DNA of 64,000 bases from Alphaproteobacteria bacterium (GTDB lineage Bacteria > Pseudomonadota > Alphaproteobacteria > TMED109): assembly GCA_021296265.1 (NCBI GenBank), contig JAGWAT010000002.1:46364-110363 (forward strand), written 5' to 3'. The translations under genes and the position numbers were made by a program. Every line of letters starts with the position of its first letter. The first letter of the stretch is position 1. The notes beneath the pieces were generated by a model. The model searched no databases and was not told the DNA's origin. It was given only the letters and a program-made list of their open reading frames with translations. Positions 30,708-43,819 of this stretch are shown in pieces.

Positions 30708-31313
30708 TCAGGCGTTCCCGGCCGTCGGCGAGATTCGGTACGGGTCAACGGGCTGGCCCGACGCCGTATCACCAATCCCGCCGATCGCCCGCTGCCACTT
30801 CACCGAGTGATCCGGCGAAAACACCAGTTCCTCGTCCGCCGCCACGTTGAGCCAGGAGTTCTGCATGATCTCCTGATCCAATTGCCCGGGTCCCCAGCCG
30901 GCATAGCCGAACAGGACCAGCGCCCGCCGTGGCCCCTGGCCACTGGCAATCTCCCGGAGCACGTCGATGCTCGACGTCAGCAGGATCGACTCCCCGACCC
31001 GCTGCGAATTCTCGTACTCCAGGTCGTCGGTGTGCAGCACGTAGCCGCGGTTCAGCTCGACCGGGCCGCCCATGTGAATCTGCACCTTCTCGGCGGCTTC
31101 CGTGCCCTCGATGTTCAGGTCGTCCAGGACCTTGTCGAACCGCGGCGAATCCGCCGGACGATTGACGACGAGCCCGACCGCGCCTTCGGCCGCATGTGAA
31201 CAGAGGTAGACGACCGCACGCTCGAAGAACAGGTCCGTCAGCGACGGCATGGCCACCAACAGCTGGCCGGCTAGGTGAGACTGGTCCGATGGCTCTGGCG
31301 GTGTCGGCGGCAT
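30708..31313 (-). CDS. YqgE/AlgH family protein
   Basis: 201-residue protein of the UPF0301 (YqgE/AlgH) family, function unsettled. Family signatures are all present: GQLLVAMPSLTDLFFERAVV near the N-terminus, GAVGLVVNRP, HMGGPVELNRGYVLH, and FGYAGWGPGQLDQEIMQNSW. Divergent from the SDR gene across about 106 bases. Length and motif order are normal. Confidence 0.92.
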   Translation of the reverse strand: MPPTPPEPSDQSHLAGQLLVAMPSLTDLFFERAVVYLCSHAAEGAVGLVVNRPADSPRFDKVLDDLNIEGTEAAEKVQIHMGGPVELNRGYVLHTDDLEYENSQRVGESILLTSSIDVLREIASGQGPRRALVLFGYAGWGPGQLDQEIMQNSWLNVAADEELVFSPDHSVKWQRAIGGIGDTASGQPVDPYRISPTAGNA

Positions 31314-31419
31314 GGGTCAACGCTATTCTTTGTCAGCCCGCTCTGCAACGCATCTGCAAGCGGCGGCCGCTATTCGATCGGACCGGCAGCGGTCGCGGCC
31401 CCGCGCTGGAGGTTTACCC

Positions 31420-32094
31420 ATGCCCCGAACAGTGATTACCGGCGCCAGTCGCGGCATCGGGCGCGCCCTTGCCATCGAACTCGCAGGGCGCGGGCACGAA
31501 GTGCTCGCCCTCTGCCGCAAACCGGTGGTGGCCACCGGGCTGGCCGATATCGAGCGTGTCACCGTCCGGGGACTCGATGTTGCCAGCCCTGTCGCCCTTC
31601 ACTCGTTCGCGACGAGCTTCGACGGCACCCTCGATGTCCTCGTCAACAACGCCGGCATTGCCGGCGGCAAGCTTCGCGACAACCTGTCCGAGGCGGATTT
31701 CCGGATGGCCGACGAGGTGTTTCGCGTCAACGCGGTCGCTCCCCTTCTGCTGACCCGCTTGCTCGCCGACCGGCTGGCGCCCGGGGCCCTGGTGGTCAAC
31801 GTGACCTCCATCTTGGGTTCGAACGCGGAGAACACCTCAGGCGGCATGGCGATCTATCGGGCGAGCAAGGCGGCCCTCAACAGCATCACCCGCACGCTGG
31901 CGGCAGAACTCGGCCTGAACGGCGTCACGGTGCTGGCCGTTCACCCGGGCTGGGTACGCACCGACATGGGCGGTCCATCCGCGACCATCGACACCGAGAC
32001 GTCGGCACGCGGGATCGGGCAGATCATCGCCGATGCCGATCCCTCGCGGAACGGCGTCTATCTCGACTGGAAGGGTGACTCGCTGCCCTGGTAA
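31420..32094 (+). CDS. Short-chain dehydrogenase/reductase
   Basis: 224-residue classical-type SDR. NAD(P)-binding TGASRGIGRALA is at residues 7-18, NNAG in LVNNAGIAG, the catalytic serine in NVTSILGS, and the YRASK motif supplies the active-site Tyr and Lys; HPGWVRTDMGG is the usual loop after them. It has a strong GGAGGT ribosome binding site 6 bases before the ATG. C-factor-like short SDRs match in size and in the HPGWVRTDMGG motif; the substrate is unknown. It converges on ureG, with 11 bases between the stops. Confidence 0.87.
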   Translation: MPRTVITGASRGIGRALAIELAGRGHEVLALCRKPVVATGLADIERVTVRGLDVASPVALHSFATSFDGTLDVLVNNAGIAGGKLRDNLSEADFRMADEVFRVNAVAPLLLTRLLADRLAPGALVVNVTSILGSNAENTSGGMAIYRASKAALNSITRTLAAELGLNGVTVLAVHPGWVRTDMGGPSATIDTETSARGIGQIIADADPSRNGVYLDWKGDSLPW

Positions 32095-32105
32095 CGCGCC
32101 GACGC

Positions 32106-32720
32106 CTACCGCCCCGGCGCCAGCCCCCCGGCCTCCACGATGAAGTCCGCCACCGCCCGCACGCCATCACCATGCTTGACCTGCGCGAACAGGAAGGGCC
32201 GCGATCCGCGCATTCGTTTGGCATCCCGGTCCATCACGTCGAGATCCGCGCCGACCAACGGTGCGAGGTCCGTCTTGTTGATGATCAGCAGGTCGGAACG
32301 GGTGATACCGGGCCCACCCTTCCGCGGAATCTTGTCGCCCGCCGAGACGTCGATCACGTAGAGCGTTAGATCGGCAAGTTCGGGTGAAAAGGTCGCGGCC
32401 AGGTTGTCGCCACCCGATTCCACGAACACCACGTCAAGATCCGGGAACACGGCTTCCAGCTCTGCGATCGCGGCCAGGTTCATCGAGGCGTCCTCGCGAA
32501 TCGCGGTGTGGGGACAGCCGCCCGTCTCGACGCCCTGGATGCGCTCCGGGCTGAGCGCACCGGAACGGGTCAAGAACTCCGCGTCCTCACGGGTGTAGAT
32601 GTCGTTGGTAATGGCCGCGACGTCGTAGGTGCCGCGCATCGCCTTGCACAGGCCATCCAGCAGAGCCGTCTTGCCGGAGCCGACGGGCCCGCCGATGCCG
32701 ACGCGAAACGGTGTCGTCAT
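32106..32720 (-). CDS. ureG: Urease accessory GTPase UreG
   Basis: GTPase that drives nickel delivery to urease within the UreD-UreF-UreG complex. 204 residues: P-loop [11 protein letters not shown] (10-20), [13 protein letters not shown], the nickel/dimer motif [14 protein letters not shown] (CPH), [17 protein letters not shown] and the base-recognition motif NKTDLAP. No histidine-rich N-terminal tail. ATG at 32720 overlaps the ureF stop. Last gene of the urea operon. Confidence 0.95.
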
Positions 32721-33388
32721 GATCGGAACAACCTCGTGTACTGGGTTTCGTGTTGCATGGATGTCCAGTCGACGACGAGCGCCGACGAGCCGATGTCGTC
32801 GAGCGACCGGGCGAGGGCCCCGCCGGCGGCCGCGAGCACATCGTCTTCGAGACCCGCCAGCACGCGCTGCCCGGCAACCTGGCCGAGCGGCACCAGCCGG
32901 ATCCCGGCCGACACCAGGTTCGCGGCCAGCGCGTGCAGGTAGGCGGCAAGCCCGACCCGGAGCGGGATTCCCTCGCGCGCGACGGCGGCGGCAACGCTGA
33001 CCGGATACACCGGCGCCGATCGCCCGCCCGCCGGGTTCACCCCGTCCCATGCCGCCGCGACCGTGTCCCGGAAGGCCCCGCCCTGTGCGGCACTCTCGGC
33101 AGCGAGTTCGCAGGTGCCGCGCAAGGCGCGGCCCAGGTCGGCGATCGCTGCCAGACGGTCGGCATTGCCGGCGTGCACGGCGTGCCAAGCCTCACGGTAC
33201 AGGTCCGCATCGATCCGGGCGGAGCCGAATCCGAGGATACCGCGCACCCAGGTGGCCAGCGTATCCCGGTCGCGGACCAAGCCGGCCTCAACGGCATACT
33301 CGATGCCGTGCGAGTACGCGTAGGCACCGACCGGGAAGGACGGACCGAGCCAGGCCATCAGGCGGACGGTGCGGCGGTGGGCTTCCAC
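32717..33388 (-). CDS. ureF: Urease accessory protein UreF
   Basis: Helical scaffold that joins UreD to UreG and gates nickel transfer. 223 residues; opens with [19 protein letters not shown], the UreF signature, and includes [20 protein letters not shown] and the conserved [20 protein letters not shown], then a C-terminal tail. GTG start 9 bases after the ureE stop; the stop overlaps ureG by 4 bases. Confidence 0.93.
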
Positions 33389-33397
33389 GTCGGTGAC

Positions 33398-33865
33398 CTA
33401 GCGACGGCCGGCCCGGGCCGGCGGGACGGCGTGCGCGTACGCACCCGGCTCCGGCGAGAACGGAGCCTGTCGCCGCTCGGTGGTCGCGCCCAGCCCTTCC
33501 GCCATTGCCGCCAGCACGTGGTCGTCCTGGATCCGGAGGCCGCCGTCCGCGAGGACCTGCAGCGGCGCATGGCGGTTGCCGATGTGCCAGGCGACCCGTG
33601 CCGCGTGGGTGGCCGATGCGCAGCGGATATCGACCACCGGCTCAGCGGCCGCCCGGACCCGCACGGTCCCGCCGCCCGCCAGCGCCAGTCCGTCCCCGTC
33701 CTCCAGCCGGGACGATGCCTCCAGGTCGAGAAGCAGCGGCTCGCCGTCATCGCCGCTCAATCGCGCCCGGCGACGCTGCCGATCGTCGTGCCCGAGAGTC
33801 ACCGTCGGCCCGTCCGCCGGCGGCGTCCAGGCGCCGCGGCGCAGCACCGAGATGGCATGCCGCAT
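33398..33865 (-). CDS. ureE: Urease accessory protein UreE
   Basis: Nickel-binding metallochaperone for urease. 155 residues: N-terminal peptide-binding domain with RRARLSGDDGEPLLLDL, then the metal domain with HIGNRHAPLQVL (the conserved nickel histidine) and DDHVLAAMAEGLGA. The C-terminus lacks the long histidine-rich tail of Klebsiella UreE. Lies between ureC and ureF, with gaps of 14 and 9 bases. Confidence 0.92.
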   Translation of the reverse strand: MRHAISVLRRGAWTPPADGPTVTLGHDDRQRRRARLSGDDGEPLLLDLEASSRLEDGDGLALAGGGTVRVRAAAEPVVDIRCASATHAARVAWHIGNRHAPLQVLADGGLRIQDDHVLAAMAEGLGATTERRQAPFSPEPGAYAHAVPPARAGRR

Positions 33866-33879
33866 CGCCGCCGACCGGC

Positions 33880-35586
33880 TCAGAAGAGGAAGTAGCGCTG
33901 GGCCATCGGCAGCCGGGTTGCCGGGTCGCAGGTCAGCAGCGCTCCGTCAGCGCGGACCTCGTACGTTTCCGGGTCGACTTCGATCCGCGGACAGAGATCG
34001 TTCAGCACCATGTCCTGCTTGGTCAGCGCGCGGGTTCCGGACACGGCCACCAGCCGCTTCGCGAGTGCGAGGTTACCCAGCCCGCCCTCCAGACCCGCCT
34101 GCGAGACGAAGGTCACGGACGTCGCGGCCCGGGCCCGCCCAAGCGCGGCGAACATCGGCCGATAGTGCACCGGCTGCGGCGTGGGGATCGACGCATTCGG
34201 ATCGCCCATCGCCGCCGCGGCGATCGCCCCGCCCTTGAGCACGAGATCGGGCTTGACGCCGAAGAACATCGGCTGCCACAGCACGAGGTCGGCCAACTTG
34301 CCTACTTCGACGGAGCCGACCTCGCGGTCGATGCCGTGCGTCCGGGCCGGGTTGATCGTGTACTTCGCGATGTATCGCCGGACCCGGAAGTTGTCGTTGT
34401 CGCCGCGTTCCTCCGGGAGCCGGCCGCGCTGCCGCTTCATCTTGTCGGCGGTCTGCCAGGTCCGGACGATGACCTCCCCGACGCGCCCCATGGCCTGGCT
34501 GTCGGACGCGATCATCGAGAACGCTCCGAGGTCGTGCAGGATGTCCTCGGCGGCGATGGTCTCGCGCCGGATGCGGCTCTCGGCAAACGCCACGTCCTCC
34601 GGGATGTTCGGGTCCAGGTGATGGCACACCATCAGCATGTCGAGGTGTTCGTCGACCGTGTTCACGGTAAACGGACGGGTGGGATTGGTGCTCGACGGCA
34701 GCACGTTCGGCTCGCCGCAGAGCCTGATGATGTCCGGCGCATGACCGCCGCCAGCGCCTTCCGTGTGGAACGCATGGATCGTGCGGTCGCGGAACGCGGC
34801 CGTCGTGGTCTCGAGGTAACCCGATTCGTTCAGGGTGTCGGTGTGGATCGCCACGCCGACATCCCACTCGTCGGCCACGGACAGGCACGTGTCGATGGCC
34901 GAGGGCGTGGTGCCCCAGTCCTCGTGCAGCTTGAGGCCACAGGCCCCGGCGTGCACCTGTTCGACCAGGGCGGCGGGTTGGGAGGCGTTGCCCTTCCCGT
35001 AGAAGCCGACATTGACGGGCAGCGCCTCCGCGGCCTCCAGCATGCGCGCCAGGTGCCACGGTCCCGGCGTGCACGTCGTCGCGTTGGTCCCTTCGGCGGG
35101 CCCGGTTCCGCCGCCCAGCATCGTGGTGATGCCCGAGTAGAGCGCGTCGTCCACCTGCTGCGGACAGATCCAGTGGATGTGGGCGTCGATCCCGCCGGCG
35201 GTCAGGACGCGACCCTCGCCGGCGATCGCCTCGGTGCCCGGGCCGACGATGATGTCGACGCCCGGCTGCGTATCCGGATTGCCGGCCTTGCCGATCGCTG
35301 CGATCCGCCCGTCGCGGAGACCCACGTCCGCCTTGACGACGCCCCAGTGATCGACGATGAGGGCATTGGTGATCACGGTGTCCACCGCACCGTCCGCGCG
35401 GGCAGCCGACCCCTGGCCCATGCCGTCGCGAATGACCTTGCCGCCGCCGAACTTGACCTCCTCCCCGTACACGGTCCGGTCGGCCTCGACCTCGATAAAC
35501 AGCTCGGTGTCGGCCAGGCGCACCCGGTCGCCGACGGTCGGTCCGTACATGGCGGCGTAGGCCGCCCGCTCGATGGAAAATGGCAC
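33880..35586 (-). CDS. ureC: Urease subunit alpha
   Basis: Catalytic subunit of the nickel urease, hydrolysing urea to ammonia and carbamate. 568 residues, full length. All active-site residues are present at a 2-residue offset from Klebsiella: nickel ligands H136, H138, carbamylated K219 (in GLKLHEDWG), H248, H274 and D362; flap residues C321 and H322 (MVCHHLD). ATG start 3 bases after the ureB stop. Confidence 0.97.
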
Positions 35587-35589
35587 GGC

Positions 35590-35901
35590 TCAGTCCTCCA
35601 GCGGGCCCTGGACCCGGGCGTTGAATCCCCGGACCACCCGGGCACCGGCGTAGGGGATCAGCCTGGCCTCGCGCTGCTGGCCCGGCTCAAATCGCATCGC
35701 GGTCCCCGCGGGAATGTCGAGGCGCCGGCCCCGGGCGGCCGCGCGGTCGAACTCGAGGGCGGTATTGACCTCGTAGAAGTGATAGTGCGAGCCGACCTGG
35801 ATCGGCCGGTCGCCGGTGTTGGCCACCGTGATCGTGACGGCTTCGGCGTCCGCGTTGAGGAGCAGCGTTCCGGGCGCGGTGATGATCTCACCGGGAATCA
35901 T
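35590..35901 (-). CDS. ureB: Urease subunit beta
   Basis: Structural subunit of urease, 103 residues. It begins [11 protein letters not shown] and has [22 protein letters not shown] and the conserved RFEPGQ, ending in VRGFNARV. The ATG at 35901 has GGAGG 6 bases before it; a TTG two codons upstream lies too close to that site. Overlaps the ureA end by 14 bases. Separate ureA and ureB genes are the bacterial pattern. Confidence 0.95.
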
Positions 35902-36220
35902 CGGCAACCTCCCTGGTTCCGCGGATAGGCTGGTGCACCGTGACCAGCTTCGTGCCGTCGGGGAACGTGGCCTCGACCTGGATCTCGGGGATCATGTCGG
36001 CCACCCCTTCCATGACCTGATCGCGGCGCAGGACGCCCGTGCCGTCGCGCATCAGATCGGCAACCGACGCCCCGTCCCGCGCCCCCTCCACGATGTAGTC
36101 GGTGATCAGGGCGACCGCCTCGGGATAGTTCAGCCGGACGCCGCGCTCGAACCGGCGGCGCGCCACGAGGGCCGCCATCGCGACAAGCAACTTGTCCTTT
36201 TCCCGCGGTGAAAGGTTCAT
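35888..36220 (-). CDS. ureA: Urease subunit gamma
   Basis: Smallest urease subunit. 110 residues: [42 protein letters not shown] (the signature, in two parts [11 protein letters not shown] and [10 protein letters not shown]) and the C-terminal [15 protein letters not shown]. An AGGAGAAC sequence precedes the ATG. A short tail ([10 protein letters not shown]) extends past the usual end and overlaps ureB. Confidence 0.95.
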
Positions 36221-36235
36221 GCGTGTTCTCCTGGA

Positions 36236-37096
36236 TCAGACGTGCCAGAGCCGGGGCAGGGCCGCGGCAAGGCCCGCGGCCTCGGCGCGGAACCCAGCCC
36301 AGAAGGCCGCGAACGCGGTGCGGACGGCGTCGCCGCGTTCCGCGAGCCAGCGTACGACCAGCACACCGTTCACGACCGTGGCCCCGGCCCGCACACCCGG
36401 CGGCAGGTCGGCGAGCAACTGCCGGGCCAGCGGCTGCCGGGCGCTGGCGTCGTCCGCAGCGTAGACGGCGCAGGCAACGGCCCGGGCCCCGCCGAAGCCG
36501 GCCGGGTGATCGAGGACGGCCGGCAGGTCGTCCTCGACATGGAGCGCATCCGCCCAGGCGAGGTCGCCATTCCGGCGGACCTCCCATGCCTCACGGACCA
36601 GGCCCCGCGTCATCCGTTCGCCCGACGCAATCCGTCCCAGCACCAGGAACTCGCCGGCCAGAACGCGGGCCCCGGCTGCTTGCCCGATGCGGACCCGCCG
36701 TCGCAGCCGCGCCCGGTCGAACAGGATGGTCTCCTGGGGCAGCCACTCGAGCCACGTCCCTGCGGCGGCCTGCAGGCGGATGTCGATCCGGCAGTCCGCG
36801 CCGCTCGATCGGTAGACCTTTTCCGCCGCCTGCGCGGCCACGACCGCGGCCGCTCCGTCGTCGACGGACACCGAGACGTCGATCCGGTCGCCGCCAACGA
36901 GGCCGCCCGACGTGGTCACGAGCGCCGCCAGCGGCGGCTCGGCGACGGGCTGGGCCGGGAACAGGACGCGCATCGGGTCCCGCTGGTACAGGTGGCGCAG
37001 GGGCGCAGGGCCGGCACCTGCGAAGCCGACCTCGGCCACGCCGTGGACGCCGCCGCCGGATCGCGGCGTGTCAGACGGTGAGGCGACGGCGGACAT
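36236..37096 (-). CDS. ureD: Urease accessory protein UreD
   Basis: UreD (UreH) binds apo-urease and conducts nickel from UreF/UreG. 286 residues with family motifs LVTTSGGLVGGDRIDVSVSV, QAAEKVYRSSG, WLPQETILFDRARLRR and FLVLGRIASGER. The ATG at 37096 lies inside the end of urtE (26-base overlap) with GGAGG very close upstream; an internal start would also preserve the core, so the first 15-20 residues are uncertain. It links the transporter genes to the urease genes. Confidence 0.9.
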   Translation of the reverse strand: MSAVASPSDTPRSGGGVHGVAEVGFAGAGPAPLRHLYQRDPMRVLFPAQPVAEPPLAALVTTSGGLVGGDRIDVSVSVDDGAAAVVAAQAAEKVYRSSGADCRIDIRLQAAAGTWLEWLPQETILFDRARLRRRVRIGQAAGARVLAGEFLVLGRIASGERMTRGLVREAWEVRRNGDLAWADALHVEDDLPAVLDHPAGFGGARAVACAVYAADDASARQPLARQLLADLPPGVRAGATVVNGVLVVRWLAERGDAVRTAFAAFWAGFRAEAAGLAAALPRLWHV

Positions 37097-37766
37097 CGTC
37101 CTCCACCATGTCTTCAGACGTGCCCGACAGCACCACCTCGCCGCGCTCCATGACGACGAAGTCGTCGGCCAGATCACGCGCGAATTCGAAGTACTGCTCG
37201 ACCAGGAGGATGGCCATATCCCCGCGTGCGGCCAGCGTCCGGATCACCCGCTCGATGTCCTTGATGATCGACGGCTGGATGCCTTCCGTCGGCTCGTCGA
37301 GCACGAGCAGCCGGGGCCGCATCACCAGCGCGCGGGCGATCGCCAGCTGCTGTTGCTGGCCGCCGGACAAGTCGCCGCCGCGGCGGCCGAGCATGTCCCG
37401 CAGGACGGGGAAGAGATGGAAGATCTCGTCCGGGAGCGTGCGGGTCGGCCGGGGCAGCGAGGCGTACCCGGTGTAGAGGTTCTCGCGGACGCTGAGCAAC
37501 GGGAAGATCTCCCGCCCCTGGGGTACGTAGGCGATCCCGCGCGCGGCGCGCTGATACGCGGCCAGCGACGTGATGTCGGCGTCCTCCCACACGATGCGTC
37601 CGGCACTCACCATCTGCTGGCCGACAATGGCCCGGAGCAGCGTGGTCTTGCCCACGCCGTTCCGCCCCATCACGCAGGTGACCCGGCCCGGTGCCGCGCT
37701 CAGGCTGACCCGGCGCAACGCCCGGCTCGCCCCGTAGTGGAGATCGATGGACTCGACCTGCAGCAT
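37071..37766 (-). CDS. urtE: Urea ABC transporter ATP-binding protein UrtE
   Basis: One of two ATPases of the urea importer. 231 residues: Walker A GRNGVGKTT, signature LSGGQQQQLAIARAL, Walker B LLVLDEPTEGIQ and switch histidine replaced by the LLVEQYFEF form typical of the LivF/UrtE group. Belongs to the branched-chain-amino-acid-type (HAAT) ABC family. Starts 2 bases after urtD and runs into ureD. Confidence 0.94.
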   Translation of the reverse strand: MLQVESIDLHYGASRALRRVSLSAAPGRVTCVMGRNGVGKTTLLRAIVGQQMVSAGRIVWEDADITSLAAYQRAARGIAYVPQGREIFPLLSVRENLYTGYASLPRPTRTLPDEIFHLFPVLRDMLGRRGGDLSGGQQQQLAIARALVMRPRLLVLDEPTEGIQPSIIKDIERVIRTLAARGDMAILLVEQYFEFARDLADDFVVMERGEVVLSGTSEDMVEDDVRRRLTV

Positions 37767-37768
37767 GG

Positions 37769-38542
37769 CTAGCGCCCCAGGTACACCTCGACGACGCGCG
37801 CATCGTTCTGCACGGCGTCGAGGGTCCCCTCGGCCAGGACCGCGCCCTCATGCAGCACGGTGACCCGGCAGTCCAGCCCCCGCACGAACGCCATATCGTG
37901 CTCCACCACGACCACCGAACGCGTACCCGCGATGCGGGTCAGCAGCGCCGCGGTCTGCTCGGTCTCCTCGTCGGTCATGCCGGCCGCCGGCTCGTCGACG
38001 AGCAGCAGCTCGGGGTCCTGCATGAGCAGCATGCCGATCTCGAGCCATTGCTTCTGGCCGTGGGACAGGTCGCCGGCGCGGCGCTTCTGGTGGGGGGCCA
38101 GGGCGGTGGTCTCGAGCACTTGCTCGATCCGGTCGCGTGAACCGGCCCGGAGGCGGGCGAAGAGGCTGCCGAGCACGCCGCGGTTTCCCGCGAGGGCGAG
38201 CTCCAGGTTGTCGAAAACGGTGTGTTCCTCGAACACGGTGGGTTTCTGGAACTTCCGGCCGATTCCGAGGTTGGCGATCGCCGCCTCATCCAGCTGCGTG
38301 AGGTCGGTACCGCCGTTGAACTCCACGCGGCCGCGGTCCGGACGGGTCTTGCCCGTGACCACATCCATCATGGTCGTCTTCCCCGCTCCATTCGGGCCGA
38401 TGACGGCCCGGAGCTCGCCCACCTCCACGTAGAAGCTGAGATCGTTCAGCGCCTTGAAACCGTCAAAGGACACGGATACCCCGTCCAGGTACAGGATGGT
38501 GTCGTGCAGCTCCGGCCGGGCCTGCACGGAACCTACGTTCAT
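37769..38542 (-). CDS. urtD: Urea ABC transporter ATP-binding protein UrtD
   Basis: Second ATPase of the urea importer (LivG-like). 257 residues: Walker A GPNGAGKTTMMDVVTGKTRP, signature LSHGQKQWLEIGMLL, Walker B ELLLVDEPAAGMTDEE and the switch in VVVVEHDMAFV. GRKFQKPTVFEEHTVFDNLE is the UrtD-type loop. ATG at 38542 overlaps the urtC stop; the longer frame upstream lies inside urtC and is not used. Confidence 0.94.
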   Translation of the reverse strand: MNVGSVQARPELHDTILYLDGVSVSFDGFKALNDLSFYVEVGELRAVIGPNGAGKTTMMDVVTGKTRPDRGRVEFNGGTDLTQLDEAAIANLGIGRKFQKPTVFEEHTVFDNLELALAGNRGVLGSLFARLRAGSRDRIEQVLETTALAPHQKRRAGDLSHGQKQWLEIGMLLMQDPELLLVDEPAAGMTDEETEQTAALLTRIAGTRSVVVVEHDMAFVRGLDCRVTVLHEGAVLAEGTLDAVQNDARVVEVYLGR

Positions 38543-39684
38543 GGGGCCGGCTCGGGGGACTGTCGCCGGCCCGGCCGGTGCCTCGCCCCCGCCCGGTTGA
38601 AAACCGGCACCGTCCCGACGATCCCCTTCGGCAGGAACAGGGTGACGGCGATGAACAGCGCCCCCAGGACGAACAGCCACATGTCAGGCAGGACGCCGGT
38701 GAAGACCGTCTTCGCGTAGTTGACGAGGATCGCGCCGAGCACGGCACCGTACAGGGAGCCGCGGCCGCCGACCGCAACCCAGACCACGATCTCGATCGAC
38801 GCTGCCGGGGCGAACTCGGACGGGTTGATGATGCCGACCTGCGGCACGTAGAGCGCCCCCGCCAGCCCGGCCAGCATGGCCGAGAGCACGAAGACGAAGA
38901 GCTTGTAGTGCTCGACCCGGTAACCGAGGAACCGGACGCGGGCTTCGGCGTCGCGCACGGCGACCAGCACCCTGCCGGCCCGGCTGCGGACGACGAAGCG
39001 GCACAGCAGGTACGCGGCCGCGACCGCGACGGCACTCGCGCAGAAGAGCGCGACGCGCGTGCCGTCGGCCTGCAGGCTGAAGCCCAGCAGGTTCTTGAAG
39101 TCGGTGAGCCCGTTGTTGCCGCCAAATCCCATGTCGTTGCGGAAGAACGCGAGCATCAGCGCAAACGTCATGGCCTGGGTGATGATCGAGAGATAGACGC
39201 CGGTCACCCGCGAGCGGAACGCGAACCAGCCGAAGACCAGCGCCAGCGCCCCCGGCACCAGCAGGGCCATGACCATCGCGAACGGGAACCAGTCGAATCC
39301 TTGCCAGTACCAGGGCAGTTCCTTCCAATCGAGGAACACCATGAAATCCGGCAGGACCGGGTGCCCGTAAACCCCTCGCTCGCCGATCTGGCGCATCATG
39401 TACATGCCCATGGCGTAGCCGCCGAGCGCGAAGAACGCGCCGTGGCCGAGGCTGAGCACGCCAGCGTATCCCCAGATCAGGTCGACGCTCAGGGCCAGCA
39501 ACGCGAACGTCAGGTACTTGCCCATCAGGCTGACGACATACGTGGGTACGTGCAGGGCGGAATCCGCAGGCAGCAGCAGGTTCGAAACCGGCACCACCAC
39601 TGCCGCCGCGAGCAGCACGGCCAGCAGGATCTGGCCGCCCCGGTTGCCGGCGAGAAGATCCACGAGTACCGACCTGACCGGCAT
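38539..39684 (-). CDS. urtC: Urea ABC transporter permease UrtC
   Basis: Inner-membrane permease (LivM-like). 381 residues, about ten helices; SVDLIWGYAGVLSLGHGAFF is the LivM/UrtC signature, with GVYLSIITQAMTFALMLAF and ALYVPQVGIINPSEFAPAAS (UrtC-specific) following. The charged C-terminal tail (RHRPGRRQSPEP) is cytoplasmic. Overlaps urtD by 4 bases and follows urtB by 3. Confidence 0.94.
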   Translation of the reverse strand: MPVRSVLVDLLAGNRGGQILLAVLLAAAVVVPVSNLLLPADSALHVPTYVVSLMGKYLTFALLALSVDLIWGYAGVLSLGHGAFFALGGYAMGMYMMRQIGERGVYGHPVLPDFMVFLDWKELPWYWQGFDWFPFAMVMALLVPGALALVFGWFAFRSRVTGVYLSIITQAMTFALMLAFFRNDMGFGGNNGLTDFKNLLGFSLQADGTRVALFCASAVAVAAAYLLCRFVVRSRAGRVLVAVRDAEARVRFLGYRVEHYKLFVFVLSAMLAGLAGALYVPQVGIINPSEFAPAASIEIVVWVAVGGRGSLYGAVLGAILVNYAKTVFTGVLPDMWLFVLGALFIAVTLFLPKGIVGTVPVFNRAGARHRPGRRQSPEPAP

Positions 39685-39687
39685 GGC

Positions 39688-41334
39688 TCAGCTCTCCACT
39701 GCTCGGCCCTTGAGGGCGAACAGGCCGCGCGGTCGCTTCTGGATGAACAGGATGATGGCCACCAACACCAGGATCTTGGCGAGCACCGCACCGGCAAACG
39801 GTTCCAGGAACTTGTTGATGACCCCGAGGCTCATGGCGCCGACCAGAGTCCCCCAGAGATTGCCGACCCCGCCGAAGACCACCACCATGAAACTGTCCAC
39901 GATGTAGGCCTGTCCGAGATTGGGGCTCACGTTGTCGATCTGGCTGAGCGCGACCCCGGCCACCCCGGCGATGCCTGCACCCAGCCCGAAGGTGGCCGCA
40001 TCCACCCAGCCGGTACGGATTCCCATGGACGATGCCATCGACCGGTTCTGGGTCACCGCCCGCATGTACAGCCCGAGCGCGGTCCGGCGCAGAACCAGCG
40101 CGATGGCACCGACCACCAGCAGGCTGAAGACGATGATGGCGACCCGGTTGTAGGGCAGCACCAGGCCCGTCGCGGTCTCGAACGCCCCGCTCAGCCATGA
40201 GGGACTCGAGACCTCGCGATTGGTCGGTCCGAATACCGTCCGGACCAGCTGCTGCAGGATCAGGCTCAAGCCCCAGGTGGCGAGCAGGGTCTCGAACGGC
40301 CGCCCGTAGAGCCAGCGGATGACGCCGCGCTCGATCGCGACGCCGGCGGCGCCTGCGACCAGAAAGGCGGCCGGCACGGCCACCGCCAGGGAATAGTCGA
40401 GACCGCCCGGGGCGAAGTCGCGGAAGATGTCCTGGACCACGAAGGTCGTGTAGGCGCCGAGCATCACCAGCTCGCCATGGGCCATGTTGATCACGCCCAT
40501 CACCCCGAAAGTAATGGCCAGCCCAACCGCGGCCAGCAGCAGGACCGAACCCAGACTAAGCCCCTGGAAGATGGTGCCCAGCAGGTTCCAGAAAGCGAGG
40601 TCGCGCTCGACGGCCTCCAGCGCCGCCGCCGCCGCCGCCCGCACCTCAGCGTCCGCCTCGCCTTCCTGGCTGAGACTCGCCAGCAGCGACCGGACTTCCG
40701 GGAGCGCCGAGTCGGAAAGGCGTTCCACGGCAGCCAGCCGGACGTCCGGCGGGAATTCCGGATTGCTCTCGATGGCCGCCTTGGCGAGCGTCAGCTGATC
40801 GAGAAGTTTCGCGTCTTCTTCCCGGGCGATCGCCTGCTCCACCGTCGCCAGCGCGCCCGCGTCCCGGGCCGCGAACACCGCCGCCGCGGCCTGCGCCCGC
40901 TGGCCCGGATCGCTCGAGAGCAGCGTCAGGCCTCCGAGCGCGGCCCTGATCACGCCTCGCAGGCGATTGTTGACCTTTACCTTCTTGAGTTCTTTTTTCT
41001 TGGCATCACCGAGCGCCGTGCCGTCCACGGCGTCGGTCAGCGCATACACCTTGCCGGTCTTGTCGCCGATGACGATGGACCCGTCGGCCTTGCGGACGAA
41101 CAGCTGGCCCTTCGCCATGGCCTCGAGAACCGGGATCGCCCTCGGGTGTCCGGTCGCCGCCAGAACCTCGACGCCGACCGCACGCTCCTTGTAGCTCTTG
41201 GCCGCCAATCCCTGGAGTGCTTCTTCCAGGGTTGCCGCCTGGCTCGCCGGAGCACCGCCGGCGACGGCGGCGAGAAACGCCATGCACGACAGCAGGGCAG
41301 CCAGGGCCGGCAGGGCGAAACCGCGTGTCGACAT
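39688..41334 (-). CDS. urtB: Urea ABC transporter permease UrtB
   Basis: Second permease (LivH-like) of the urea importer. 548 residues, the long UrtB form: a signal sequence (1-33), a periplasmic helical-repeat region (about 35-230, with RAQAAAAVFAARDAGALATV and ESNPEFPPDVRLAAVERLSD) and then a LivH-type permease (LAITFGVMGVINMAHGELVM, VFGGVGNLWGTLVGAMSLG). The N-terminal repeat region is normal for UrtB but absent from amino-acid permeases. Confidence 0.94.
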   Translation of the reverse strand: MSTRGFALPALAALLSCMAFLAAVAGGAPASQAATLEEALQGLAAKSYKERAVGVEVLAATGHPRAIPVLEAMAKGQLFVRKADGSIVIGDKTGKVYALTDAVDGTALGDAKKKELKKVKVNNRLRGVIRAALGGLTLLSSDPGQRAQAAAAVFAARDAGALATVEQAIAREEDAKLLDQLTLAKAAIESNPEFPPDVRLAAVERLSDSALPEVRSLLASLSQEGEADAEVRAAAAAALEAVERDLAFWNLLGTIFQGLSLGSVLLLAAVGLAITFGVMGVINMAHGELVMLGAYTTFVVQDIFRDFAPGGLDYSLAVAVPAAFLVAGAAGVAIERGVIRWLYGRPFETLLATWGLSLILQQLVRTVFGPTNREVSSPSWLSGAFETATGLVLPYNRVAIIVFSLLVVGAIALVLRRTALGLYMRAVTQNRSMASSMGIRTGWVDAATFGLGAGIAGVAGVALSQIDNVSPNLGQAYIVDSFMVVVFGGVGNLWGTLVGAMSLGVINKFLEPFAGAVLAKILVLVAIILFIQKRPRGLFALKGRAVES

Positions 41335-41454
41335 GGCGGCGGGTGTCCGGGCGTTGGAAACCGGCCAGCGGCCGGCGTGAGAGGGTGGAACAATAGCGCC
41401 CGTCCCGGTCAGGGCGGCAGGGGGTCCCCTGCCACCCCGGACCGGGTGCGCAGC

Positions 41455-42744
41455 CTACATGTCGACGGTACCGCCGAACTTCGGAGCCTCGCAGTTGCCG
41501 CAGACCCACGGGAAGGTCCAGTCGGCGATCAGCTTCGCGCTTTCGGGAATGAAGTCCGACCAGGCGTCACCCTTGACCACGCCCTCGGTTTCCCAGACCG
41601 TCTCGAACTGGCCGTCGGACTGGATCTCGCCGATGAGCACGGGCTTCGACAGGTGATGGTTGGTGTTCATCACGGCGATTCCACCGGTCAGGTTCTTGAA
41701 GGTCTGGCCGTACATGGCCTGGCGGACGGCGTCGACCTCGACCGTGCCGGCCTGCTGCACCGCCTGCACCCACATGTTGAAGCCGATGTAGTGCGCTTCC
41801 ATGGGGTCGTTCGTCACGCGGTCCTCGTCGCCGATGAACTCGTGCCACTGTTCGATGAAGACCTCGTTCTCGTCGGTCTCGACGCTCATGAAGTAGTTCC
41901 ACGCCGCGAGGTGGCCGACGAGCGGCTCGGTGTCGAGACCGGCCAACTCCTCTTCGCCGACCGAGAAGGCGACGACCGGGATGTCCTCAGCCATGATGCC
42001 CTGGTTGGCCAGCTCCTTGTAGAAGGGAACGTTGGCGTCGCCGTTGATGGTCGAAACCACGGCCGTCCGCTTGCCCTCGGAGGCGAACTTCTTGACATCT
42101 CCCACGATCGTCTGCCAGTCGGCATGCCCGAACGGGGTGTAGTTCTCAAGGATGTCCTCGTCCGAAATCCCCTTGGCGTTCAGGTAGGCGCGGAGGATCT
42201 TGTTGGTCGTGCGCGGGTACACGTAGTCGGTGCCCAGCAGCACGATCCGCTCGGCGCCGCCACCGTCCTCGCTGAGGAGATAGTCAACCGCGGGAATGGC
42301 CTGCTGGTTCGGGGCGGCACCGGTGTAGAACACGTTCCGCGAACTCTCTTCCCCTTCGTACTGGACGGGGTAGAACAGCAGTCCGTTGAGTTCCTCGATC
42401 ACCGGCAGTACCGACTTGCGCGATACCGACGTCCAATTGCCGAAGATGACGGCAACCTCATGCTGCTCGATCAGCTCGCGAGCCTTCTCGGCGAACAGGG
42501 GCCAATTCGATGCGGGGTCGACCACGACGGGCTCGAGCATCTTGCCGAGCAGGCCGCCCTTGCTGTTCTGCTCCTCGATAAGCATCAGCATCGTGTCCTT
42601 CAGCGTGGTTTCGCTAATGGCCATCGTGCCCGAAAGTGAATGCAGGACGCCGACCTTGATCGTGTCGGCCTGTGCCGTTCCGGCCAAAGCGGTCGACGCG
42701 GCCAATATGCCTGCGAAGACCAGGTGACGTTGGTTTCGAACCAT
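41455..42744 (-). CDS. urtA: Urea ABC transporter substrate-binding protein UrtA
   Basis: Periplasmic urea receptor. 429 residues: signal peptide (MVRNQRHLVFAGILAASTAL, cleavage after AQA), then KVGVLHSLSGTMAISETTLK, the UrtA signature, and VYPRTTNKILRAYL, ending WTFPWVCGNCEAPKFGG. The ATG at 42744 follows a GGAGAA sequence; the frame is open further upstream but that lies in the leader. First gene of the operon, 120 bases from urtB, and directly downstream of a sigma-54 promoter. Confidence 0.95.
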   Translation of the reverse strand: MVRNQRHLVFAGILAASTALAGTAQADTIKVGVLHSLSGTMAISETTLKDTMLMLIEEQNSKGGLLGKMLEPVVVDPASNWPLFAEKARELIEQHEVAVIFGNWTSVSRKSVLPVIEELNGLLFYPVQYEGEESSRNVFYTGAAPNQQAIPAVDYLLSEDGGGAERIVLLGTDYVYPRTTNKILRAYLNAKGISDEDILENYTPFGHADWQTIVGDVKKFASEGKRTAVVSTINGDANVPFYKELANQGIMAEDIPVVAFSVGEEELAGLDTEPLVGHLAAWNYFMSVETDENEVFIEQWHEFIGDEDRVTNDPMEAHYIGFNMWVQAVQQAGTVEVDAVRQAMYGQTFKNLTGGIAVMNTNHHLSKPVLIGEIQSDGQFETVWETEGVVKGDAWSDFIPESAKLIADWTFPWVCGNCEAPKFGGTVDM

Positions 42745-42821
42745 TGAATTTCTCCGTGAAGACAGGTGCGCACCCACCGTTGTCCGGGGCCGCTTCGCGG
42801 ACTGCACCATGCCCTGCAGGA

Positions 42822-42838
42822 AGCAATTTCCATGCCAA
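42822..42838 (-). promoter_or_regulatory. Sigma-54 promoter of the urea operon
   Basis: TTGGCATGGAAATTGCT on the minus strand matches the sigma-54 (RpoN) consensus TTGGCACG-N4-TTGCW, with the invariant GG and GC exactly 10 bases apart and only one changed base (C to T) in the -24 element. Transcription would start near 42811, about 67 bases before urtA. NtrC-type nitrogen control is the expected regulation. Confidence 0.75.
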
Positions 42839-43135
42839 CTCAGCGGCGGGGCGGGCAACGGTTGCCTGAAGACAGCGGGTACAGGCGCTTACTGCTCGCA
42901 CGATTATTGATCAATATCTTCCACTACCTGCTCATTACGTCGCCATTGCCTGCCATTTGTGCAAGTACCGCTGGCCGGGGCACGTTCCGTGCAATGCCCG
43001 CTGCCCCGTGCAGTGCGTCCGGTCGGGCCCGGGAACGCGCTCCTCTGGAAACCCGGCCCCGACCGGGCTACAAAGCGCGCTGCTCGCTCCGGCGGGATCG
43101 CCGCCAGCCCCTAGCTCCAACGGGATGTAGCCTCA
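42839..43135. promoter_or_regulatory. Upstream region of the urea operon with two short dyads
   Basis: Contains an AT-rich perfect palindrome TATTGATCAATA (42905-42916), about 100 bases upstream of the predicted urtA start, and GCAC-GTTCC-GTGC (42979-42991), about 175 bases upstream. The second has NtrC-like half-sites but a spacer of 5 rather than 7. Both lie where sigma-54 enhancer sites occur. It also holds the leader of the divergent hydrolase gene. Confidence 0.35.
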
Positions 43136-43819
43136 ATGGGATCCATGATCGCGGTTCGCGCCGCCGATGACACCAGCCTTCCCGTCTACCTCGCGGAGCC
43201 GACAGGAATCCGCCGGGGCTCGCTGGTGGTCATTCAGGAAATCTTTGGCGTCAACCCGTACGTCCGCAGTGTCGCCGACCAGTTCGCCGAGGCCGGTTAC
43301 GTGTGCTACGCCCCGGATCTCTTCCACCGGATCGAGCCGGGCATCGAGCTCGGCTACGAGGCGTCCGACGTCGAGCGCGGGAGGGAACTCAAGACCCAGG
43401 CGGGCTGGGACCTCCCCGTCATGGACATTCAGACCTGCGTGGCCACCCTGTTGATCAACTACAGGGTCGGCGTGATCGGCTTCTGCTACGGGGGGTCGCT
43501 GTCGTGGCTCAGTGCCTGCCGGGGCTACGGCATGGAGGCGGCCGTCTGCTATTACGGCGGGCAGATCGCGGCCTTGCTCGACCAGCCGGCGAAGGTCCCC
43601 GTGCAGATGCATTTCGGAGACCGCGATGCGTCCATCCCACCGGCGGACGTCGAGAAGATCCGCGCATTCGCCACCGATGCCGACATTCACGTGTATGACG
43701 GCGATCATGGTTTCGCGTGTACCGCACGCGGCAGCTACCACCCCGCCTCGGCGGAAGCCGCCAATGCACGCACCCTCGCGTTCCTTGCCCAGCATGTAGC
43801 CCGGGAAGAAACGCAATGA
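43136..43819 (+). CDS. Dienelactone hydrolase family protein
   Basis: 227-residue alpha/beta hydrolase. The triad of the family is visible: nucleophile C117 in GFCYGGS, D164 in FGDRDASIP and H191 in YDGDHGFAC; E35 in VIQEIFGVN is the residue that tunes the cysteine. Real dienelactone hydrolases act in chlorocatechol breakdown, but most family members have other, unknown substrates. ATG at 43136 or 43145 are both possible. Its stop overlaps the FKBP start. Confidence 0.88.
   Translation: MGSMIAVRAADDTSLPVYLAEPTGIRRGSLVVIQEIFGVNPYVRSVADQFAEAGYVCYAPDLFHRIEPGIELGYEASDVERGRELKTQAGWDLPVMDIQTCVATLLINYRVGVIGFCYGGSLSWLSACRGYGMEAAVCYYGGQIAALLDQPAKVPVQMHFGDRDASIPPADVEKIRAFATDADIHVYDGDHGFACTARGSYHPASAEAANARTLAFLAQHVAREETQ

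Follow-up and report, generated by a model that had tools for sequence, protein, structure and literature searches.

In the 64,000-nucleotide stretch of DNA analysed here (the window) a block of twelve genes, urtABCDE-ureDABCEFG, encodes a urea ABC transporter and a urease with its accessory proteins, and a predicted sigma-54 promoter box is located 5' of urtA. The coordinates of these genes and of the non-coding features of the locus are compiled in Table 1.

Table 1. Features of the urt-ure locus, with positions counted in the window
Feature	Position	Strand	Evidence or remark
predicted sigma-54 promoter box TGGCATGGAAATTGC (-26 to -12)	42823..42837	-	kept in 7/7 genus genomes, flanks diverged
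candidate NtrC-like element TGATCAATAATCGTGCG	42892..42908, approximate	-	consensus match in part of the genus
predicted 5' leader, ~67 nt	42745..42811	-	predicted +1 (C of GC = -12) to urtA ATG
urtA, urea ABC transporter substrate-binding protein	41455..42744	-	TIGR03407, 582 bits (cut-off 493)
GC-rich 19-pair hairpin	41404..41446	-	in the 120-nt urtA-urtB gap; covariation
urtB, permease	39688..41334	-	TIGR03409, 428 bits (cut-off 250)
urtC, permease	38539..39684	-	TIGR03408, 458 bits (cut-off 296)
urtD, ATPase	37769..38542	-	TIGR03411, 384 bits (cut-off 304); start set by ATGA overlap with urtC
urtE, ATPase	37071..37766	-	TIGR03410, 344 bits (cut-off 286)
ureD	36236..37096	-	PF01774, 164 bits
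ureA, urease gamma	35888..36220	-	PF00547, 153 bits
ureB, urease beta	35590..35901	-	TIGR00192, 143 bits (cut-off 90)
ureC, urease alpha	33880..35586	-	TIGR01792, 971 bits (cut-off 680)
ureE	33398..33865	-	PF05194, PF02814
ureF	32717..33388	-	PF01730, 114 bits
ureG	32106..32720	-	PF02492, 136 bits, broad CobW/HypB/UreG family
dienelactone hydrolase gene	43136-43819	+	divergent from urtA

The twelve genes and their junctions

An earlier reading of the sequence alone had described urtABCDE-ureDABCEFG as a series running in one direction with overlaps or short gaps, and NCBIfam and Pfam identities together with a reading of the junctions confirmed that all twelve genes are present, co-oriented and tightly packed. 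All five transporter subunits score above the curated cut-offs, with UrtB having a long N-terminal part so that the family match begins at residue 254, and the nickel urease cluster is complete, comprising UreA, UreB and UreC as well as the accessory proteins UreD, UreE, UreF and UreG, the last being assigned at the broad PF02492 level only. Neighbouring genes are separated by 2 nt (urtD-urtE), 3 nt (urtB-urtC, ureB-ureC), 9 nt (ureE-ureF), 14 nt (ureC-ureE) or 15 nt (ureD-ureA), or they overlap by an ATGA (urtC-urtD, ureF-ureG), by 14 nt (ureA-ureB) or, at urtE-ureD, by 26 nt. The position given earlier for the urtE-ureD overlap, 37071-37096, is correct, and the ureD ATG is kept in all seven genomes of the genus set, which consists of the window genome and six others with urtA at 95-96% identity. 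The tight junctions are likewise kept in 7/7 genomes, the sole loose one being urtA-urtB with its 120 nt. Terminator-like sites numbered four, compared to 4.6 expected by shuffling, with none in a gap between the twelve genes. As the genes overlap and terminators are absent, the sequence makes one transcript over all twelve genes plausible.

The block is collinear in all six relatives of the genus. In 20 of 30 other alphaproteobacterial genomes, with the distances taken manually from two lists, ureD follows urtA in the same orientation within 6 kb, so the linkage of urt and ure is not special; in the remaining ten ureD was found nearby upstream (four), 8.6 kb downstream (one), elsewhere or on another contig (four), or not at all (one).

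Two further elements of the region were recorded. An Rfam match to the 5' ureB sRNA family (RF02514, 95 bits, cut-off 40) lies at 35145-35434 on the plus strand, antisense to ureC, and may merely reflect the conserved urease coding sequence. The intergenic region that urtA shares with the divergent dienelactone hydrolase gene holds an inverted repeat (43043-43079; minus-strand sequence TTTGTAGCCCGG...CCGGGTTTCCAGAG), which is conserved with exactly one copy per genome in 7/7 genomes of the genus.

The box 5' of urtA and its conservation

The minus strand from 42838 to 42822 reads TTGGCATGGAAATTGCT and follows the pattern GG-N10-GC, with GG at 42836-42835, GC at 42824-42823 and the ATG of urtA at 42744. 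Direct reading thus bore out that GG and GC are exactly 10 apart and that the box lies 78 bases 5' of urtA, as had been stated from the sequence alone. The box differs from the consensus TGGCAC-N5-TTGC in one position (TGGCAT), and its GG-N10-GC is embedded in the TGGCAY and TTGC context of a sigma-54-dependent promoter. By itself the motif is not rarer than chance, neither in the window, where a search allowing two mismatches gives 65 matches with 64.8 expected, nor in the whole genome, where 172 matches with up to one mismatch face 235 for the reversed pattern. Since the motif alone occurs at chance frequency, the case for the box rests on its position and its conservation. Scored with hand-set weights derived from the general consensus, the TTGGCATGGAAATTGCT box is the best in the ~400 bp upstream of urtA, and none of 200 shuffles contained one as good.

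Seven-way alignment of the upstream regions of the genus set revealed that TGGCAT and TTGCTT of the box are kept in all seven genomes. Only 18% of the 202 nt above the box (42839-43040) are invariant, compared to 72% of the box, its variable inner spacer included, 25% of the 8 nt between the box and the predicted start, 82% of the leader (42745-42812) and 85% of the urtA coding sequence, the fourfold sites of which are 53% invariant. Across the class, a sigma-54 box with a score of at least 11.5 (hand-set weights) is found at 69 of 86 other urtA loci. These 86 are what remains of 90 alphaproteobacterial loci after removal of four of the window's genus, the 90 being 30 plus 60 taken from a list of urtA matches with lower-scoring matches and a few duplicates of the earlier set excluded; locus L189, which is near a contig end and had its region cut at the wrong place, stays among them as a miss. 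In a broader first set of 107 loci, which includes distant paralogues and some duplicates, the best box was reached by at most 5% of the shuffles at 59 loci. Position, conservation within the genus and class-wide recurrence together support the sequence-only reading of the box as a sigma-54 promoter.

The predicted leader and a motif at the predicted start site

The predicted leader contains GGTGCAG at 42808-42802 and a Shine-Dalgarno sequence, ACGGAGA, and between the predicted start and the Shine-Dalgarno sequence its conservation within the genus resembles that of coding DNA. An N-terminal extension of UrtA in place of a leader was ruled out by an in-frame TGA in L003 and L005 and by variable sites in all codon positions. 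In the window the leader frame is open from 42858, and 42810 starts an in-frame ATG that is GTG in the other six genomes of the genus. An Rfam search of the whole window at gathering cut-offs gave no match in the leader, and allowing E up to 10 over 42600-43150 yielded none there either, the four sub-cut-off matches all lying at 43006-43079. The leader folds with an energy typical of its composition (z -0.10), and no common minimum-energy fold was found across the seven genus leaders, which differ too little for a covariation test. Searching with the leader resulted in one strong match per genome in 7/7 genomes of the genus and in matches only with E >0.1 in the other 21 genomes of the family, and nhmmer applied to the upstream regions of other loci found only the seven genus leaders. 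A repeated element was ruled out too; the short additional hits seen in three relatives fall within what appears to be one coding sequence. The conserved 67 nt probably carry a further signal. Across the genus the leader of the PII gene likewise appears strongly conserved, so strong conservation may be a property of this genus's nitrogen leaders; in most cases the PII leader contains an inverted repeat, CCGACG...CGTCGG.

In a minority of Alphaproteobacteria GGTGCAA follows the sigma-54 box of urtA from about +2 (loci L066, L067, L069, L083, L096, L102, L202, L204, L222 and L233, among others), in some as TTGC-N3-GCAA, and in the window's genus GGTGCAG lies at +4; most urtA promoters are without the motif. 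It was first spotted by eye and counted afterwards. In the first set GTGCA occurs at offsets 13-15 after the C of -12 in 19 of 54 loci, seven of which belong to the window's genus. The second set has it in 9 of 69 loci, all at offset 13, versus four over 46 other offsets, these nine hits representing five genera and the set overlapping the first in that L186, L191, L192 and L206 repeat sequences of it. Among 81 deduplicated sequences GGTGCAA is found 11 times near the start (shuffle maximum 4) and GTGCAA 14 times (maximum 5), and TTGC-N3-GCAA 7 times versus 0.10 expected. Inspection by eye of 30 PII-gene upstream regions, not all with a good box, from 16 genomes mostly picked because their own urtA carried the motif revealed it in none. 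Among the nearest upstream ORFs of 11 loci, also inspected by eye, no common regulator gene was obvious, and the titles and abstract openings of the literature searched held no description of a start-site or leader element at urtA. We tentatively suggest that many alphaproteobacterial urtA promoters might have a second control element at the start, either an operator at which initiation is blocked or a signal in the 5' end of the RNA, which would add control by urea or nitrogen status on top of sigma-54/NtrC. It would take the form of GGTGCAA at ~+2, in some lineages that of the palindrome TTGC-N3-GCAA centred near the start, and would survive in the window's genus as GGTGCAG at +4 inside the 67-nt leader. 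Leader and motif are the less expected features of the locus. The motif is a lead rather than a result about this window; if functional, the two would point to regulation of urea uptake at a level not described so far.

Probable activator and transcript, and known systems

The assembly (2.54 Mb, 77 contigs, 93.8% complete) encodes one RpoN (PF04552, 188 bits) and contains four matches to the sigma-54 activation domain, two of which are strong. The two strong ones belong to proteins encoded near each other and accompanied by histidine kinases, as in ntrBC-ntrYX, and from this gene order and general knowledge we take them to be NtrC and NtrX. The NtrC-like protein (L152) has the GAFTGA loop, which is required for contact with sigma-54; no second enhancer-binding protein carrying this loop, and apart from NtrX no other full one of any kind, was found in the 93.8% complete assembly. 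Upstream of the PII gene (L156-L162) a box TTGGTAC...TTGCTT is present in 7/7 genomes, i.e. sigma-54 boxes of the same form precede a second nitrogen gene of the genus. NtrC, named as the activator by the sequence-only reading, is thus favoured as the probable activator of the predicted promoter, being the only such protein found and the PII box matching.

We conclude that the box is very probably a genuine sigma-54 promoter that would be activated by NtrC under nitrogen limitation and drive urtABCDE-ureDABCEFG. Phosphorylated NtrC would open the RpoN-containing RNA polymerase at the box, transcription would start near 42811 and run through the urt and ure genes alike, and high-affinity urea import and urease would therefore be induced together. 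Counting against this reading, of the four amt genes in the genome carrying the window, one has a degenerate sigma-54 box and the others have no good one. So does the search for an NtrC site, which yielded no convincing one: aligned versions of the candidate element upstream of the box agree with the consensus at 8 of 10 positions in L004, L006 and L008, which 8-16% of shuffles reach as well, L002, L003 and L005 have their best match elsewhere, and overall the best matches to the NtrC consensus are not all at one position and are equalled by 8-45% of shuffles.

The hairpin in the urtA-urtB gap is paired in 97% of cells in the seven sequences, with three pairs changed on both sides, and may separate urtA from the eleven genes that follow. 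With the box being real, urt and ure might still be partly separate, the hairpin processing or attenuating the transcript, urtA being expressed in large excess and urease depending on read-through or a weak promoter of its own. This covarying hairpin in a 120-nt gap speaks for such an arrangement, as does Paracoccus, where urt and ure have distant locus numbers (Pden_4019, Pden_1212) and both respond, being raised on nitrate versus ammonium in the cited data (PMC5424462). However, the hairpin is without a T-run, no terminator-like site was scored at it, and the urtE-ureD overlap leaves no space for a usual intergenic promoter. We consider partly separate units possible but doubtful, and they are in part compatible with co-induction from the sigma-54 box, the reading that we prefer. 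A role in stabilising or processing the transcript is more likely for the hairpin than one in termination, and under the preferred reading it would probably stabilise the urtA mRNA or partly separate it, allowing the binding protein to be made in excess.

Activation by NtrX instead of NtrC is improbable: ntrX lies beside ntrC and its product has a sigma-54 activation domain according to Pfam, but this domain (L153) lacks the GAFTGA loop present in NtrC. Hardly credible is a chance match with another promoter driving urtA, which would suit the chance-level frequency of the motif in window and genome, but the box is kept throughout the genus and recurs class-wide at the same place, and a scan of 31000-43500 for sigma-70-type sites, the one promoter type scanned for, found none. 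With NtrC-dependent sigma-54 control as the preferred reading, this lineage would wire urea scavenging to sigma-54 like its relatives, which helps annotation and is unsurprising.

Related control has been described in several systems. The NtrC regulon predicted from binding sites in Rhizobiales, Rhodobacterales and two gammaproteobacterial orders includes urease and urtABCDE, i.e. the target genes and the proposed activator are those of the window (PMC5343134), and in a sigma-54 survey urease genes are reported chiefly from Alpha- and Betaproteobacteria (PMC12316311). Two acetic acid bacteria are listed with urtABCDE and ureDABCEFG, one of them with distant locus numbers (PMC5493696, PMC3751514). 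In Pseudomonas putida the urt genes are up under nitrogen limitation, attributed to NtrB/NtrC, but a table of the same report has urt rising in the rpoN mutant too, a misfit with simple sigma-54 dependence there (PMC7801951). The closest parallel is the urtA-B-C promoter of Bradyrhizobium sp. DOA9, for which an RpoN box TGGCATGGTTCTTGC is listed at -77, near-identical to the window's in letters and distance, and the rpoN mutant of which is reported with urtA-D and ureA-D down; DOA9 is in culture, fixes nitrogen, encodes RpoN twice and has been studied by expression analysis, whereas the window genome has one RpoN and is known from sequence alone (PMC13207237). As sigma-54/NtrC control of urt and ure is already in print, the finding in the window is an ordinary one, with an arrangement that is the norm among bacteria of this group.
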